Of a stretch of 64,000 nucleotides of DNA, positions 2,312 through 8,197 are shown one piece after another (within the stretch, counting starts at the first letter, position 1; each line of letters begins with the position of its first letter). Origin of the DNA: Myxococcaceae bacterium JPH2 (GTDB lineage Bacteria; Myxococcota; Myxococcia; Myxococcales; Myxococcaceae); contig JAEMGR010000003.1 in the NCBI GenBank assembly GCA_016458225.1, positions 248,001 through 312,000 on the forward strand, read 5' to 3'. The position numbers were made by a program, and so were the translations under genes. The notes beneath the pieces are model-generated. The model had not been told where the DNA came from and ran no database searches. It saw nothing but the letters and a program-made list of their open reading frames with translations.

Positions 2312-2779
2312 TCATTTTCGACACGCCTGGGGACACGCCGACCACAGGCCGAGGCCCGCTCGCCGGGCCTCGGTCTCCAGCGCTTCGAACTCCGCGCGAC
2401 GGGCCTTCCCAGCCGGAGGCACGAAGAGGGCACACCCATAGCCGCGCTCCACCAGCAGCGCGTTGACGTCGCGTCCATCCACGCTGACGTACGCGAGCCG
2501 TCGTCCATAGCGGTCCTCGCAGGCCTCGCCGTCGGACAAGCGCACCACGCGCCCCGCCACGAGGCTCCGGTTGAACGCCTTCGCCTCCGCGCCGAAGCAC
2601 TCGTGCGCGCCTCGGGTCGTCTCCGGCGTGTCGACGAGCAGGTAGCGAACCCGCTCGCCACCTTCGAGCACGAGGGTGTCTCCATCGATGACCTCGGCGA
2701 CCACGCCCGACTCGGGCCCGCAGGGAGCGCCACCACAGGCCGCGAGCCCCAGCCCCAGCACGAGCATCACGGCGCGCAT
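2312..2779 (-). CDS. thermonuclease-family (SNase-like) lipoprotein
   Basis: A 155-residue secreted nuclease. Residues 1-15 are a lipoprotein signal (VLGLGLAAC), so the mature protein is anchored at Cys15. The catalytic core matches staphylococcal nuclease: IDGDT (Asp32/Asp34), Arg45 and Glu53 in VRYLLVDTPE spaced like Arg35/Glu43 of the type enzyme, and Arg90 in EDRYGRR. Family members cut DNA and RNA in a calcium-dependent reaction. Several Cys in the mature part suggest disulfides outside the cytoplasm. The ATG at 2779 lies inside the last codons of the lamin-tail gene (13-base overlap), so it is the third cistron of that operon. The frame is open to 2980, but the lipobox fixes this start. 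Confidence 0.88.
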   Translation of the reverse strand: MRAVMLVLGLGLAACGGAPCGPESGVVAEVIDGDTLVLEGGERVRYLLVDTPETTRGAHECFGAEAKAFNRSLVAGRVVRLSDGEACEDRYGRRLAYVSVDGRDVNALLVERGYGCALFVPPAGKARRAEFEALETEARRAGLGLWSACPQACRK

Positions 2780-4596
2780 GCGACGTTCTCCCGCCCCGGC
2801 GTGCCCCGGTCTCCCGCGCCATAGCGCGCGCTCACTGGCGCGAGGCAGAAGCTGCTCGGTGCATCGTTCCCCACCGCGTCCCGCACACCGGGCCGAAGCT
2901 GCGAGGCCACACCCGGGGTCGCCACGCTGGAGTACGTCACCGTGTCGAGCATTCGCCCATCGAGCGACAGCCGCAGCCAATGCGCTCCCGCGCCGTTCAC
3001 GAGGTTGAACCCGAAGGTCCCCAGCACCGCGGGCAGCCCACCGTTGAGCGCGGACTCGTCACTGCGCGCGATGACGCCCAGGGCTCCCGCCCTCAAAGTC
3101 AGACACAGCGGTGAAGACAGCAGGCTCGACCCACTCTCGCTTGAGAGCACCAGTCCGTTGAGGTCCACTTCGCGCAGGGCCAGGACCTCCACCCATTCCC
3201 CCACGGTGTCCGCGACCGCGCTGGGGTCCGCCATGAACTCCGTCAACACGAGCGACCCTGGTTCGGGACTCCGAAGCGCGCGGGCCTTCCCCGTCGTCCG
3301 GTCGATGCACGTCGGCCCCGTGACGCCTGCATCACTCCCCGCATCCAGGAGACCAGCATCCACGCCCGCGTCGCTGGAGCCTTGCGCCGAACACTCGCGA
3401 TTGGCGCGTCCGGGAGTCCCGAGGTCACCGCGCGCACCGTAGGGCTCCGTCGCCCGACACCATGCATCCGGAGCGTCGTTGTCTCGCGCGTTCGCGTGTG
3501 ACGCGGACACCTGGATTGAGACTCCGTCCTCCGCGCCGCCCAAGCTGACGCCATCGATGAGCGTGTCTCCGGAGCGAAGCCACACGCTCCCGCCCGCGTT
3601 GCGCAGGTCCACTCCGAACGTGGCCACAGGCACAGGCAATCCACCGTTGAGCGTGGCCTCCCGCTGGCGGGCCAGCACCGCGTACTCCCCCGCCGCGAGC
3701 GACAGACACCGCGACGACTCGAACGTCGTCGCCGCCGAGTCCGTTCCCAAGCTCAAGCCGTTGAGGTCCACGGGCTCGGTGGCGAGGACCTCCACCCATT
3801 CACCCAAGGTGTCGTCCCCGCGCGGGTTCGCCATCACCTCGGTCAACACCAACGAACCGGATCGAGGACGCAGCAATGCACGCGGCCCCACTGCACCCGG
3901 TGGCACGCACGTCTCTCGCGTCCCGGCATCCACGCCCCCATCGCGGATCACGCCTCCATCCGAAGTGCCTCCATCCGGAGCCGCCGAGACACAGGGCGCG
4001 TTCGGCTCGCCAGGGCTCCCACGAAAGCCACGCGTGGCCTCACCCGTCGCGTCACACCAGCGCGAGGCGTCGTCATTCGCTTCGGCGTCGGGCACGAGCC
4101 GCCCGTCATAGGTTCGAGCCACCCCGGCCTTCCCGGGGGCGGAGAGCGACACCTCGTCCAACACACGCTCACCGCACCGCAACCCGAGCACCCCACTGGT
4201 GTTCCCCAAGGCCCCCAGCGCATCTCCGTACGCGTGGTCCACATGCTCCGGCAGCGGCCCTTCGCGCACATCGCCGAGCACGAGGTAGCCATTGGCTGGA
4301 ATCACCACGGACTCGGTGAAGGCATGGTCTCGCTCTTGCGAGCCATCCGCTCGCGCCGCGTAGAGCATCACCCCGCGCAAGTCCACGGCGGCACGCGACG
4401 TCGCATGGACCTCCACGTACTCATGGCCAGTGTCCGTTCCCTCGGGATCATTGAGGAACTCGGTGATGACCGCGTCTCCGGGGAGCAAGCCCGCGCAGAC
4501 CTCGCTCACCGCACCGTCCTTCGCGCCCCCACACCCCAGTCCCCACGCCATCACCAACACCCCACCCACGCTCCACATCGGACGCATCACGCTCAC
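2767..4596 (-). CDS. lipoprotein with three lamin-tail (LTD) domains
   Basis: A 609-residue lipoprotein with lipobox Cys22 (MAWGLGC). It carries three copies of an Ig-like lamin-tail domain, at about residues 41-160, 246-400 and 450-609. Each opens with a VLTE(V/F)MA(N/D)P-type strand followed by GEWVEVL and VDLNG, the usual LTD signature. Low-complexity Asp/Gly linkers (for example DGGTSDGGVIRDGG near 208) join them. Bacterial LTDs are extracellular modules that often accompany secreted nucleases or phosphoesterases. That fits its place between the HhH/barrel gene (33 bases upstream) and the overlapping nuclease gene. The protein has no enzymatic motif and probably acts as a surface scaffold or ligand binder. 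Confidence 0.85.
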   Translation of the reverse strand: MSVMRPMWSVGGVLVMAWGLGCGGAKDGAVSEVCAGLLPGDAVITEFLNDPEGTDTGHEYVEVHATSRAAVDLRGVMLYAARADGSQERDHAFTESVVIPANGYLVLGDVREGPLPEHVDHAYGDALGALGNTSGVLGLRCGERVLDEVSLSAPGKAGVARTYDGRLVPDAEANDDASRWCDATGEATRGFRGSPGEPNAPCVSAAPDGGTSDGGVIRDGGVDAGTRETCVPPGAVGPRALLRPRSGSLVLTEVMANPRGDDTLGEWVEVLATEPVDLNGLSLGTDSAATTFESSRCLSLAAGEYAVLARQREATLNGGLPVPVATFGVDLRNAGGSVWLRSGDTLIDGVSLGGAEDGVSIQVSASHANARDNDAPDAWCRATEPYGARGDLGTPGRANRECSAQGSSDAGVDAGLLDAGSDAGVTGPTCIDRTTGKARALRSPEPGSLVLTEFMADPSAVADTVGEWVEVLALREVDLNGLVLSSESGSSLLSSPLCLTLRAGALGVIARSDESALNGGLPAVLGTFGFNLVNGAGAHWLRLSLDGRMLDTVTYSSVATPGVASQLRPGVRDAVGNDAPSSFCLAPVSARYGAGDRGTPGRENVACAP

Positions 4597-4629
4597 GCAC
4601 CTCTCCCAACAGCCGCGCCTCCCAGCGCG

Positions 4630-6660
4630 TCAGAAACGGCACTCCCACTCCAGCTGGAACACGTGCCGAGACGCCGTGGTCGGCACGCGCGAGGCCCCCG
4701 ATTCGAGTTCCCACGCGTAGCGCGCTCGCACCGAGACCGCGCGAGGGGCGTCCCACGCCACCTCGGCGCTGGCCCGTGTGGCGCGCCGGGGCCGCGTCCA
4801 GCTCAGTCGTCCGCGCAGACGCAGGGACTCATGGGGCCGCAGCCGGACATCCATCACCGCACGTGCTTCATCGCGAGCCGACCTCGTGTCTGAACCACTC
4901 GCGTGGGCGATGCCGTACTGCGCGGCCAGCGACACCGCTTCACCGAGCTTCGACTCCACGCGACCCGTGATGCGCAGCCCCGCGTCCGCACAAGGCGCTT
5001 CGCCCGCACGCTCGACACAGTCTCCCGATTCCCCCACGCCCGAGTCCTGGTACTCGCCCCAGAGTGACGGCTGGAGCCACGGCACCTCGGTCCAGTCCAC
5101 GCGTGCCGATGCACGCAGGCGCACCGTGCCCGCGGTCCCTGGCAGCGAGCCATCCTCGGGGAGCGCCCACGCATCCACCTGACCTCGCGCGCGCCAGCTC
5201 CTTCCGAGGCGCTGCACATAGCGGGCTCGCGCTCCCAACTCATTGCGCGCCCGCGAGCCCTCCAACGAGTCCGGTCCAGCAGGCGCTCCCGTGTAGGGAT
5301 TGGCGAAGCCCCGTGCGTAGTAACGCAGCAGCAGCTCCAGCTCGCGCGCTTCCGCGGAGAGCACGGTGCGCTGGACCATGCCTACTCCACCTCCACCCTC
5401 GGGAGCGGAGTCGAAGCTGCGCGCCACTTCCAGGAAGAGGTCCACCGGCCCCGTGCCCACGGCCGCATCCACGCCCGCCGCGCCGAAGCCACCTCCCATC
5501 GGGTAGCCCGCGCTGGGACGGAAGTCGAGCGACGCCCCTTCGACGTTCCACACCGGCCGCGCGGCCCATGCCGTCGCGCCCACGCGCACGCGCGAGGACC
5601 ATCGCAGCGTCGCGTTACCACCGCCTGCCCACTCTCGAAACATGCTCGGCAACAGGCGCGCGCTCAGCTTCCCTTGTGGCGTCCGCTCCATCCCGCCCCA
5701 GACAGGCACCGCGCGACAGGCCGAGCCCGCACACGGCCCCGCTTCGCGCAACGCGGAGGAGGACAGCGATCGGGACTGATAGGAGCCGAATGCGGTCAGC
5801 ACCAGCTCCGCGTGCTCACCCGCGGGGCCTCGCACGGTGGCCGCGACGCCACGGAAGCCTTCGCTCCAACGAAAGTCCGGGGTGACTTCCTCCTCTCGAG
5901 ACTCCGCGTCGCACGCGCCCTCTCCCAGGAAGCACCACCGCTCCGGAGTTCCCGCGCCACGGACCTCGTCATCCGGCACGAAGCCCTCGGGCGTGGGCAG
6001 TCCCGTCGTGTCCAGCGTGAGCCGCTGACCGAAGCCCACTCGATACGCGCCCACCAGCATCCGTGCACGCGCGAAGGTCCCCTGCACGTAGAGCTTGGGG
6101 ATCACGACCGCGAGATGCGGCGGGCCCACGATGAGCACCTTCCGGCGCGGCTCCCACGTGGGCGCCTCGAACCGACGACGCGCGAGCGTGGCCAGCAATC
6201 CCACGCTCCATCCATCCGGGCTTCGCGCTCGCGCTTGAAGCGCCAGAGGCGGAATCAATGGATCCGCCATCGCGAAGGCGGTCAGGAGTCGCACGTCTCC
6301 AGAGAAGTGCTCGGGCCGCTCTCTCGCCCAATACGGCCGCAGGGTTCGCCGCTCGTCTTCAGAGAGCGCGGCGATGAGTCCTCCGGGCGCGGACGACTCC
6401 GCTCGCAGGAGCGCATCCACTCGCGCGTACGTCAGCCCAGGCAACGCGTACAGCAAGCCGCGCGTCGCGGACCGGGGCTCCACTCCCGTGCGCCGCAGCA
6501 GGCGCAGCGCTTCCCACGTGCCCTCCGACGTGGCGCTGTCCTCATCCATGGACTCCGGCTCTCGCGCTTCGTCCGACTCGGGCTCCAGCACGTAAGGCGC
6601 CGCGTGCCCTCGGGACGCGGTGAGCAGCAGCAACAATCCCAGGCAGAGAGCCAGACGCAC
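4630..6660 (-). CDS. exported HhH-motif protein with predicted outer-membrane barrel
   Basis: A 676-residue protein starting at GTG 6660 (AGAGGG seven bases upstream). Residues 1-20 form a signal peptide (LCLGLLLLLTAS). Residues about 48-88 hold a helix-hairpin-helix-like motif (LLYALPGLTYARVDALL), typical of ComEA-style DNA binders. From about residue 120 to the C-terminus the chain alternates aromatic and small residues and ends in Phe (LEWECRF), as in outer-membrane beta-barrels. The open frame continues upstream to 6993, but that part overlaps the opposite-strand esterase gene and lacks a signal peptide. It is the first gene of the operon with the LTD lipoprotein and nuclease. I am confident it is exported, moderately sure of the barrel, and less sure that the HhH binds DNA. 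Confidence 0.7.
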   Translation of the reverse strand: MRLALCLGLLLLLTASRGHAAPYVLEPESDEAREPESMDEDSATSEGTWEALRLLRRTGVEPRSATRGLLYALPGLTYARVDALLRAESSAPGGLIAALSEDERRTLRPYWARERPEHFSGDVRLLTAFAMADPLIPPLALQARARSPDGWSVGLLATLARRRFEAPTWEPRRKVLIVGPPHLAVVIPKLYVQGTFARARMLVGAYRVGFGQRLTLDTTGLPTPEGFVPDDEVRGAGTPERWCFLGEGACDAESREEEVTPDFRWSEGFRGVAATVRGPAGEHAELVLTAFGSYQSRSLSSSALREAGPCAGSACRAVPVWGGMERTPQGKLSARLLPSMFREWAGGGNATLRWSSRVRVGATAWAARPVWNVEGASLDFRPSAGYPMGGGFGAAGVDAAVGTGPVDLFLEVARSFDSAPEGGGGVGMVQRTVLSAEARELELLLRYYARGFANPYTGAPAGPDSLEGSRARNELGARARYVQRLGRSWRARGQVDAWALPEDGSLPGTAGTVRLRASARVDWTEVPWLQPSLWGEYQDSGVGESGDCVERAGEAPCADAGLRITGRVESKLGEAVSLAAQYGIAHASGSDTRSARDEARAVMDVRLRPHESLRLRGRLSWTRPRRATRASAEVAWDAPRAVSVRARYAWELESGASRVPTTASRHVFQLEWECRF

Positions 6661-6840: not shown

Positions 6841-7614
6841 ATGGGATACGTCCACATCGTCCGAGACTTCCCCTCGACTCCAGAGGGCTTCCGCCGCACC
6901 GTCCGCATCTACACTCCGGACGGGTACGACGCGGCGGCGGACCACCGCTTCCCGGTGCTCTACATGCACGATGGGCAGAACGTCTTCGCCCATCCCGAGT
7001 CCGCCCTCTTCGACACGTGGTGCGCCAACCTCGTGCTCGAGTCGATGGTGAACGAGGGCCGCTCGGAGCCGTGGCTCATCGTCGCGGTGGACTCGGGCAC
7101 GGGCCGGCTTCAGGAGTACTCGCCCTGGGACGAACCCCGCAGCGGCGTGAAGGCGCGCGGTGAGGCCTATGCGCGCTTCCTCGTGGAGGAGCTGAAGCCA
7201 TACATCGACAGCACCTACCGCACGCGGCCCTCCCCCGAGTGGACCGCCACCATGGGCTCATCCCTCGGCGGACTCTTCTCGCTGTACCTGGGCCTGCGCT
7301 CACCTGAGGTCTTCGGCCGCATCGGCGCGCTGTCCCCCACCGTCATGTGGAGCGGCAACCGGCTGTTCGACCAGTGGACTCAGCACAGCCGCCACTGGAC
7401 GCGCATCTATCTGGACGCGGGCAGCCACGAGTTCATCCAGCCCGCGGGCGTGCCGCTCAACTACGGCGAGGCGACGCGCGAGTTCTACTTCCACCTCAAG
7501 CGCCTGGGCTACGCGGACCACGAGCTGTTCCTCGTGCTGGAGCCCGGCGGTGGCCATCACGAGCGGGACTGGCAGCGGCGCCTGCCCTTTGCGTTGCGGT
7601 GGCTGCTGGGTTGA
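6841..7614 (+). CDS. alpha/beta-hydrolase, putative esterase (PF00756-like)
   Basis: A 257-residue esterase-D/enterochelin-esterase-type hydrolase. It shows an N-terminal strand region (RTVRIYTPDGYD), the oxyanion segment FPVLYMHDGQNVF, the nucleophile elbow GSSLGG near residue 141, and a C-terminal catalytic His in GGGHHERDW. The length fits single-domain members. No signal peptide, so probably cytoplasmic; the substrate cannot be told from sequence. The start at 6841 (MGYVHIV) is where family similarity begins; an in-frame ATG at 6783 is possible, and neither has a good ribosome-binding site. It diverges from the HhH/LTD/nuclease operon across about 180 bases, and the TIGR02265 gene follows after ten bases, probably in the same transcript. 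Confidence 0.85.
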   Translation: MGYVHIVRDFPSTPEGFRRTVRIYTPDGYDAAADHRFPVLYMHDGQNVFAHPESALFDTWCANLVLESMVNEGRSEPWLIVAVDSGTGRLQEYSPWDEPRSGVKARGEAYARFLVEELKPYIDSTYRTRPSPEWTATMGSSLGGLFSLYLGLRSPEVFGRIGALSPTVMWSGNRLFDQWTQHSRHWTRIYLDAGSHEFIQPAGVPLNYGEATREFYFHLKRLGYADHELFLVLEPGGGHHERDWQRRLPFALRWLLG

Positions 7615-7624
7615 GGCGCCTCGC

Positions 7625-8197
7625 GTGAGCCCTCGCCGTCCGCTGCCCTACGAGCAGCGCCTCGTCTACGTCCAGGTCGTCGAAGGGCTCCTCACGCATG
7701 GGCTCCAGGGTCGCGTATCCCTGCGACTCAAGGAGCGGCTGCGCCGCGCGGGCATCGACTTGGATCGCCCGCTGATGCCGGCCTACTCCGTCCCGCTGTG
7801 GATGTATTGCCTGTCCATCATCGTCGAGGAGACCCATCCCGACGTGCCGCTCGAGGAAGGCTACCGCCAGCTCGCCATCGCGCACGTGGAGGGCTACGGG
7901 CGCACGCTCATCGGGCGCGCGGTGTATGGGGTGATGCGCTTGCTGGGGCCGCATCGGTTCGTGCAGCGCATCCCGCAGCTCCTGCGCGGCACGGACAACT
8001 ACACGGAGGCCGAGCTCACCGAACGCGAGCCCACGCGCCACGAGCTGAGACTCAACTCGAACCTCCCCGCGCCGGGCTACACGGAGGCGCTCCTGGAGGC
8101 CATGCTGCGACTGGGTGGCGCCGCCGCTCCGCATGTCACGAAGCTGCACGGCGACGCGGACAGCACCGTCTTCGAGCTGCGCTGGCAGGAGCGCTGA
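7625..8197 (+). CDS. TIGR02265 (DUF2378) family protein
   Basis: A 190-residue member of the TIGR02265/DUF2378 family, a large paralogous family restricted to myxobacteria and of unknown function. Hallmarks are the N-terminal helix with RLVYVQVVEGLL, the central WMYCLSIIVEETHPDVPLEE block, the GYGRTLIGRA segment and the C-terminal FELRW strand. The start is GTG 7625, after a weak TTGAGG; the open frame extends upstream only by overlapping the esterase end. It is soluble with no export signal. It lies ten bases after the esterase and converges on the ATP-grasp gene (three bases apart). Its presence is one of the stronger taxonomic clues in the window. Confidence 0.87.
   Translation: MSPRRPLPYEQRLVYVQVVEGLLTHGLQGRVSLRLKERLRRAGIDLDRPLMPAYSVPLWMYCLSIIVEETHPDVPLEEGYRQLAIAHVEGYGRTLIGRAVYGVMRLLGPHRFVQRIPQLLRGTDNYTEAELTEREPTRHELRLNSNLPAPGYTEALLEAMLRLGGAAAPHVTKLHGDADSTVFELRWQER

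Follow-up and report, generated by a model that had tools for sequence, protein, structure and literature searches.

A conserved myxobacterial gene cluster for an outer-membrane barrel, a lamin-tail lipoprotein and secreted nucleases, with a possible role in handling external nucleic acid

Myxobacteria carry a small, anciently conserved gene cluster whose predicted products are an outer-membrane barrel, a lipoprotein of the cell surface and an enzyme that cuts DNA. The copy analysed here lies in a stretch of 64,000 nucleotides from Myxococcaceae bacterium JPH2 (contig JAEMGR010000003.1, positions 248,001 to 312,000), called the window below. The individual parts are known; their assembly as a phylum-wide cluster is not described in the papers searched, and has apparently never been studied as a system. 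We consider it an even call that these proteins work together at the outer membrane to process external nucleic acid, and probably to scavenge it, the connection to DNA being drawn from domain content, gene linkage and co-loss.

The open reading frames on the minus strand between 2312 and 6660 specify, in order, the barrel protein, a lipoprotein with lamin-tail domains (LTDs) and an SNase (Table 1), the three-gene, same-strand arrangement that a first-pass annotation had read from the letters of the window alone. The LTD and SNase genes overlap by 13 bases, and the gap between the barrel and LTD genes is 33 bases from GTG 4596 or 42 from ATG 4587, so the spacings of +33 and -13 given by that annotation hold provided that the LTD gene starts at the GTG. 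The three export signals that it listed are likewise present: a plain signal peptide on the barrel protein and a lipobox on each of the other two. That of the SNase is good (GLAA-C15); that of the LTD protein is non-canonical (WGLG-C19), where the relative L032 has a canonical LVG-C. A Pfam search of the three reading frames returned three LTDs and one SNase domain, and no match for the barrel protein. Relative to the nearest relative, by record name Citreicoccus inhibens, in which the barrel is 87% identical, dN/dS is 0.20, 0.17 and 0.13 for the three genes of the operon, indicating purifying selection. The divergent neighbours at 6841-8197 of the window, a putative esterase gene (PF00756) and a DUF2378 gene, lie outside the conserved cluster.

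Table 1. Features of the cluster in the window (positions are those of the window)
Feature	Position	Strand	Remarks
Predicted outer-membrane barrel protein with N-terminal ComEA-like helical domain	4630..6660	-	676 aa, GTG start
Sec signal peptide of barrel protein, predicted, ~20 residues (...TASRGHA/AP, cut at the slash)	6601..6660	-	from sequence; kept in relatives
Equivalent of ComEA-like HhH domain, N-terminal, helical	6331..6525	-	hairpin 1 is LPGLT; hairpin 2 shortened and degenerate
Beta-barrel of barrel protein	4633..6303	-	~24 long strands in model
Lipoprotein with three lamin-tail domains	2767..4587	-	606 aa (ATG 4587) or 609 aa (GTG 4596)
LTD 1 of lipoprotein	4150..4482	-	domain table
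LTD 2 of lipoprotein	3547..3882	-	Pfam and domain table
LTD 3 of lipoprotein	2938..3282	-	domain table
SNase lipoprotein	2312..2779	-	155 aa; D34, R45, D50, T51, E53, R93 present

The cluster extends well beyond the strain in which it was noticed. The barrel is present in 32 of 60 relatives, and a search of 195 Myxococcota genomes gave strong barrel matches in 82 of the 96 genomes of the window's family (Myxococcaceae) and in 22 genomes elsewhere; Myxococcus xanthus is among the carriers (L073). Neighbourhoods were read for 50 barrel loci. Among loci not cut off by a contig end, the barrel has an LTD gene beside it in every case (44/44) and the SNase lipoprotein gene in 36 of 41. The linkage is conserved across the phylum. 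Gene order varies: barrel-LTD-SNase in the window's clade, barrel-SNase/OB-LTD-SNase in most other genomes of its family, LTD-SNase/OB-LTD-SNase-barrel in family f11 and LTD-SNase-barrel in families f26-f31. The survival of linkage through such reordering between families argues for a shared function. Clusters in f11 and f16 (L146-L148, L152) have an extra small single-LTD gene, giving five genes in all. When all neighbouring open reading frames were clustered, four families proved widely common around the loci (barrel, LTD, SNase and SNase-OB), the remaining common clusters being provisionally read as antisense shadows or as local synteny among near relatives. An all-phyla genome scan with a narrow pattern, GF[GA][EQ]RLTLD, gave 44 loci, of which 43 are titled Myxococcota or Deltaproteobacteria. 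The other, a record titled Comamonas sp. KCTC 72670 (L066, BNCN01000008.1), is probably mislabelled; its barrel gene is Myxococcus-like (54% identical). More distant families may exist, Bacteroidota being one candidate phylum. A mobile-element or plasmid origin was rejected, as there was no plasmid match at the DNA or protein level and the barrel tree tracks the genome families.

Presence and loss of the components are also correlated. SNase was found in 78 of the 82 barrel-positive Myxococcaceae genomes and in none of the 14 barrel-negative ones (Fisher p ~1e-13, a value that ignores shared ancestry). This co-loss, together with the phylum-wide conservation, disposes of the idea that the genes are chance neighbours. 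One of the four barrel-positive genomes lacking SNase is fragmented and its contig breaks off at the barrel, and the rest come from one genus; these three (G020, at L030/L058, G033 and G158) are reduced genomes of 2.1-2.7 Mb that have kept the barrel and have no SNase anywhere. G020, the sole one of them whose locus was read, keeps barrel and LTD together (L058). Among barrel carriers across the phylum, SNase is absent from G020, G033, G158, G164, G188 and G191 and gives a marginal match in G014, and four of these genomes (G020, G164, G188, G191), with the marginal G014, define the core as barrel plus LTD. The nucleases would then be a near-constant addition to this pair, and the cutting of DNA would not be essential to the core.

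The AlphaFold model of the barrel protein, whose input included 28 family members, has a mean pLDDT of 81 and a pTM of 0.83, and shows residues 46-110 as helical and, after them, about 24 long strands that end near F676. The signal peptide, the even number of long strands (24), the terminal aromatic residue (F676) and barrel matches in the PDB together mark an outer-membrane beta-barrel. Since its Foldseek matches, all to large outer-membrane barrels (FimD usher, MtrB, BtuB, AlgE), are diverse and have low TM-scores, the barrel class is clear and the type of barrel is not. The protein has no Pfam family, and Pfam detected neither a TonB plug domain nor a TonB match in the window copy, the N-terminal region being instead a small helical domain. 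The N-terminal end of an outer-membrane barrel is by rule periplasmic. Residues facing the lumen, with sides assigned by hydrophobic alternation, average ~32 basic against ~20 acidic per protein; such a net basic lumen would be consistent with a polyanionic ligand, though it is no proof of one. Three pairs of cysteines in loops (C243/C250, C310/C315 and C548/C557 in the numbering of the window copy) are invariant or nearly so in alignment A1, which suggests disulfide-stabilised loops.

The first-pass annotation had described the 676-residue product as an HhH/barrel protein. AlphaFold and Foldseek both support the barrel, and the N-terminal domain is helical and ComEA-like; the HhH part of the claim stands for the family and is compromised in the window copy. 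Together with the gene linkage far beyond the strain, this structure means that two of the checks proposed by the annotation came out in its favour. Pfam places HHH_3 at the N-terminus of 23 of 28 barrel-family members, with matches up to E=8e-14 in remote barrel families, and the barrel-family profile matches ComEA (8dss, E=1.7e-8) and EEPD1 (9yi2). To judge from these profiles, the N-terminal domain of the family is genuinely ComEA-like. The window protein itself has no HHH_3 match, and in the window copy and its close relatives, which fall on the Citreicoccus, Corallococcus and Myxococcus side of the tree, no HhH is detected by Pfam and the second hairpin is shortened. Hairpins of the DNA-contacting GxG type are missing from nearly all members of the family: they read LPGLT and GAIT or GxLT where ComEA has GIG, and the second hairpin glycine is absent. 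This replacement makes classical DNA contact by the hairpins doubtful, above all in the window copy. The degeneration falls inside the clade that is without a fourth gene.

That gene lay outside the view of the first-pass annotation and strengthens the reading of the cluster as one concerned with DNA. It is found in most relatives outside the window's clade and encodes a lipoprotein of ~375 residues that joins an SNase domain to a C-terminal OB-fold and is better conserved than the barrel (mean column identity 58% versus 44% in the family alignments). The OB-fold matches SSB and the OB domains of aspartyl- and lysyl-tRNA synthetases; because the SNase half of the model was poorly predicted, the OB-fold match alone was used. 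Absence of the gene in the window's clade maps to one branch of the tree (support 100/99), in keeping with a single loss. The possibility that the second SNase had moved elsewhere in the window's genome was rejected, as a genome search gave a single SNase. In three remote-family genomes (G192, G193, G194), an SNase with the span of the OB-fold nuclease is encoded on contigs separate from that of the barrel cluster.

The SNase protein of the window copy scores 74.9 bits against a cut-off of 21 for PF00565 and aligns to the S. aureus nuclease (1syg) at E ~1e-15, and all of the residues D21, R35, D40, T41, E43 and R87 of that enzyme have equivalents by alignment and motif check; domain, lipobox and a full predicted catalytic set thus agree with the secreted SNase proposed at first reading. 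The triple lamin-tail lipoprotein of that reading was also recovered, Pfam finding PF00932 in three stretches (72 bits, cut-off 34.3). A search of the PDB gave no sequence match for it. Six further LTD matches over the cut-off occur in the window's genome (G000), in reading frames of 641-1959 aa on contigs C1, C5, C9, C14, C28 and C36 (L104-L109).

Secreted DNases repeatedly carry LTD, HhH and OB domains as accessory parts (PMC6085458; PMC4486849; PMC8289736). Halophile DNases bear HhH pairs or LTDs as extra, presumably DNA-binding, parts (PMC4486849), and ExeM of Shewanella combines an LTD with OB-like and nuclease parts, loss of the LTD weakening the enzyme in vitro (PMC6085458). Nuclease, OB-fold, LTD and ComEA-like HhH are thus the set of the secreted DNases, here joined to a barrel, from which we infer a device that cuts and probably imports nucleic acid from prey, matrix or debris. 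This gives partial support to the apparatus for capturing, processing or taking in external DNA that the first-pass annotation proposed. The lipoproteins would be anchored in the outer membrane next to the barrel, where the LTD protein may bind the barrel, the polymer or both, and the SNase or SNases, aided by the OB-fold where present, would cut DNA or RNA from prey or matrix. Fragments could then pass through the barrel into the periplasm, there to be met by the ComEA-like N-terminal domain, unless this domain serves to gate the pore. The use is more likely to be nutrition or clearance of extracellular DNA (eDNA) than heritable transformation. A bolder form of the proposal, which we think unlikely, is a DNA-import machine of the outer membrane found so far only in Myxococcota, a 24-strand pore with a ComEA-like periplasmic domain and no type IV pilus, fed by the nuclease, OB-fold and LTD lipoproteins and allowing predators to eat, or gain genes from, the DNA of their prey.

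Uptake for natural transformation, with the barrel as a DNA pore, the ComEA-like domain drawing DNA in and the SNase trimming it before ComEC, would explain the fusion of such a domain to a large barrel and suits the presence of large barrels of the FimD/MtrB class among the best fold matches. It also has a possible precedent in a screen of Riemerella anatipestifer, in which transformation required a predicted barrel together with a predicted surface protein and an HhH protein (PMC8459023). ComEC itself is encoded in 79 of the 82 barrel-positive Myxococcaceae genomes, but it is just as common without the cluster (13/14), being nearly universal either way, so a strict link between the two is not seen. 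A non-specific nuclease would moreover be a poor partner for DNA of gene length, and the hairpins are atypical and, in the window's clade, decayed. We therefore favour scavenging over transformation, which we regard as quite unlikely.

The remaining alternatives dispense with import or with DNA as the principal ligand. In a device for the matrix or for clearance, the LTD lipoprotein would anchor to eDNA and the SNase would trim it for biofilm remodelling or as a defence against incoming DNA. eDNA is bound to EPS in M. xanthus biofilms, the species reportedly secretes DNA hydrolases (PMC9073016), and ExeM, an LTD nuclease, is tied to biofilm formation (PMC6085458); such a device would, however, leave unexplained why a 24-strand barrel with a domain at the N-terminal end is conserved, and we rate it, too, as quite unlikely. 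A transporter or anchor for some other ligand, made of the barrel and a lid-like LTD lipoprotein, with nucleases added since the ligand often accompanies nucleic acid, draws on the barrel and LTD being the only invariant pair, as the SNase-less genomes attest, and on the role of bacterial LTDs not being established (PMC6085458). The strong co-loss of SNase and barrel speaks against such a transporter, as does the presence in most lineages of an SNase partner with an OB-fold; like transformation, it is quite improbable.

If the cluster does serve the scavenging of external nucleic acid, it bears on two open questions: by what route other than the type IV pilus DNA can pass the outer membrane, and what becomes of prey DNA in myxobacteria. 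Combining a dedicated large barrel and its ComEA-like domain with one or two nucleases, it is a compact and testable candidate for both, and standard genetics are available in one of its carriers, M. xanthus.

The first-pass annotation knew of no described system with this exact trio, and the literature searched likewise yielded no description of the barrel/LTD/SNase combination. Partial likenesses do exist. The barrel family's N-terminal domain aligns with ComEA, from which it differs in being fused to a barrel, in its altered hairpin glycines and in its degeneracy in the window copy. ExeM of Shewanella and the LTD- or HhH-tailed DNases of Deinococcus and halophiles are exported nucleases that share these accessory domains (LTD, OB-fold or duplicate HhH). 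The ExeM-type enzymes, however, have everything fused in one protein of the DNase I/EEP type and lack a barrel, whereas the myxobacterial cluster places its domains on separate lipoproteins, employs SNase enzymes and includes an outer-membrane barrel. The Riemerella proteins RA0C_RS04915, RA0C_RS04920 and RA0C_RS02645, compared by description, again comprise a predicted barrel, a surface-type protein and a separate HhH protein; the description gives the barrel a carboxypeptidase regulatory-like domain, does not state an HhH-barrel fusion and mentions neither LTD nor SNase. BtuB-BtuG and SusCD similarly pair a large barrel with a partner lipoprotein, and BtuB is among the fold matches, but the match is generic (TM ~0.3-0.4) and no TonB plug domain is seen in the myxobacterial barrel. 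The DNA-degradation loci of Ca. Izemoplasma, which are tied to the use of eDNA, also bring together LTD, nucleic-acid-binding and nuclease domains, although in one large protein accompanied by transporters and in another phylum.
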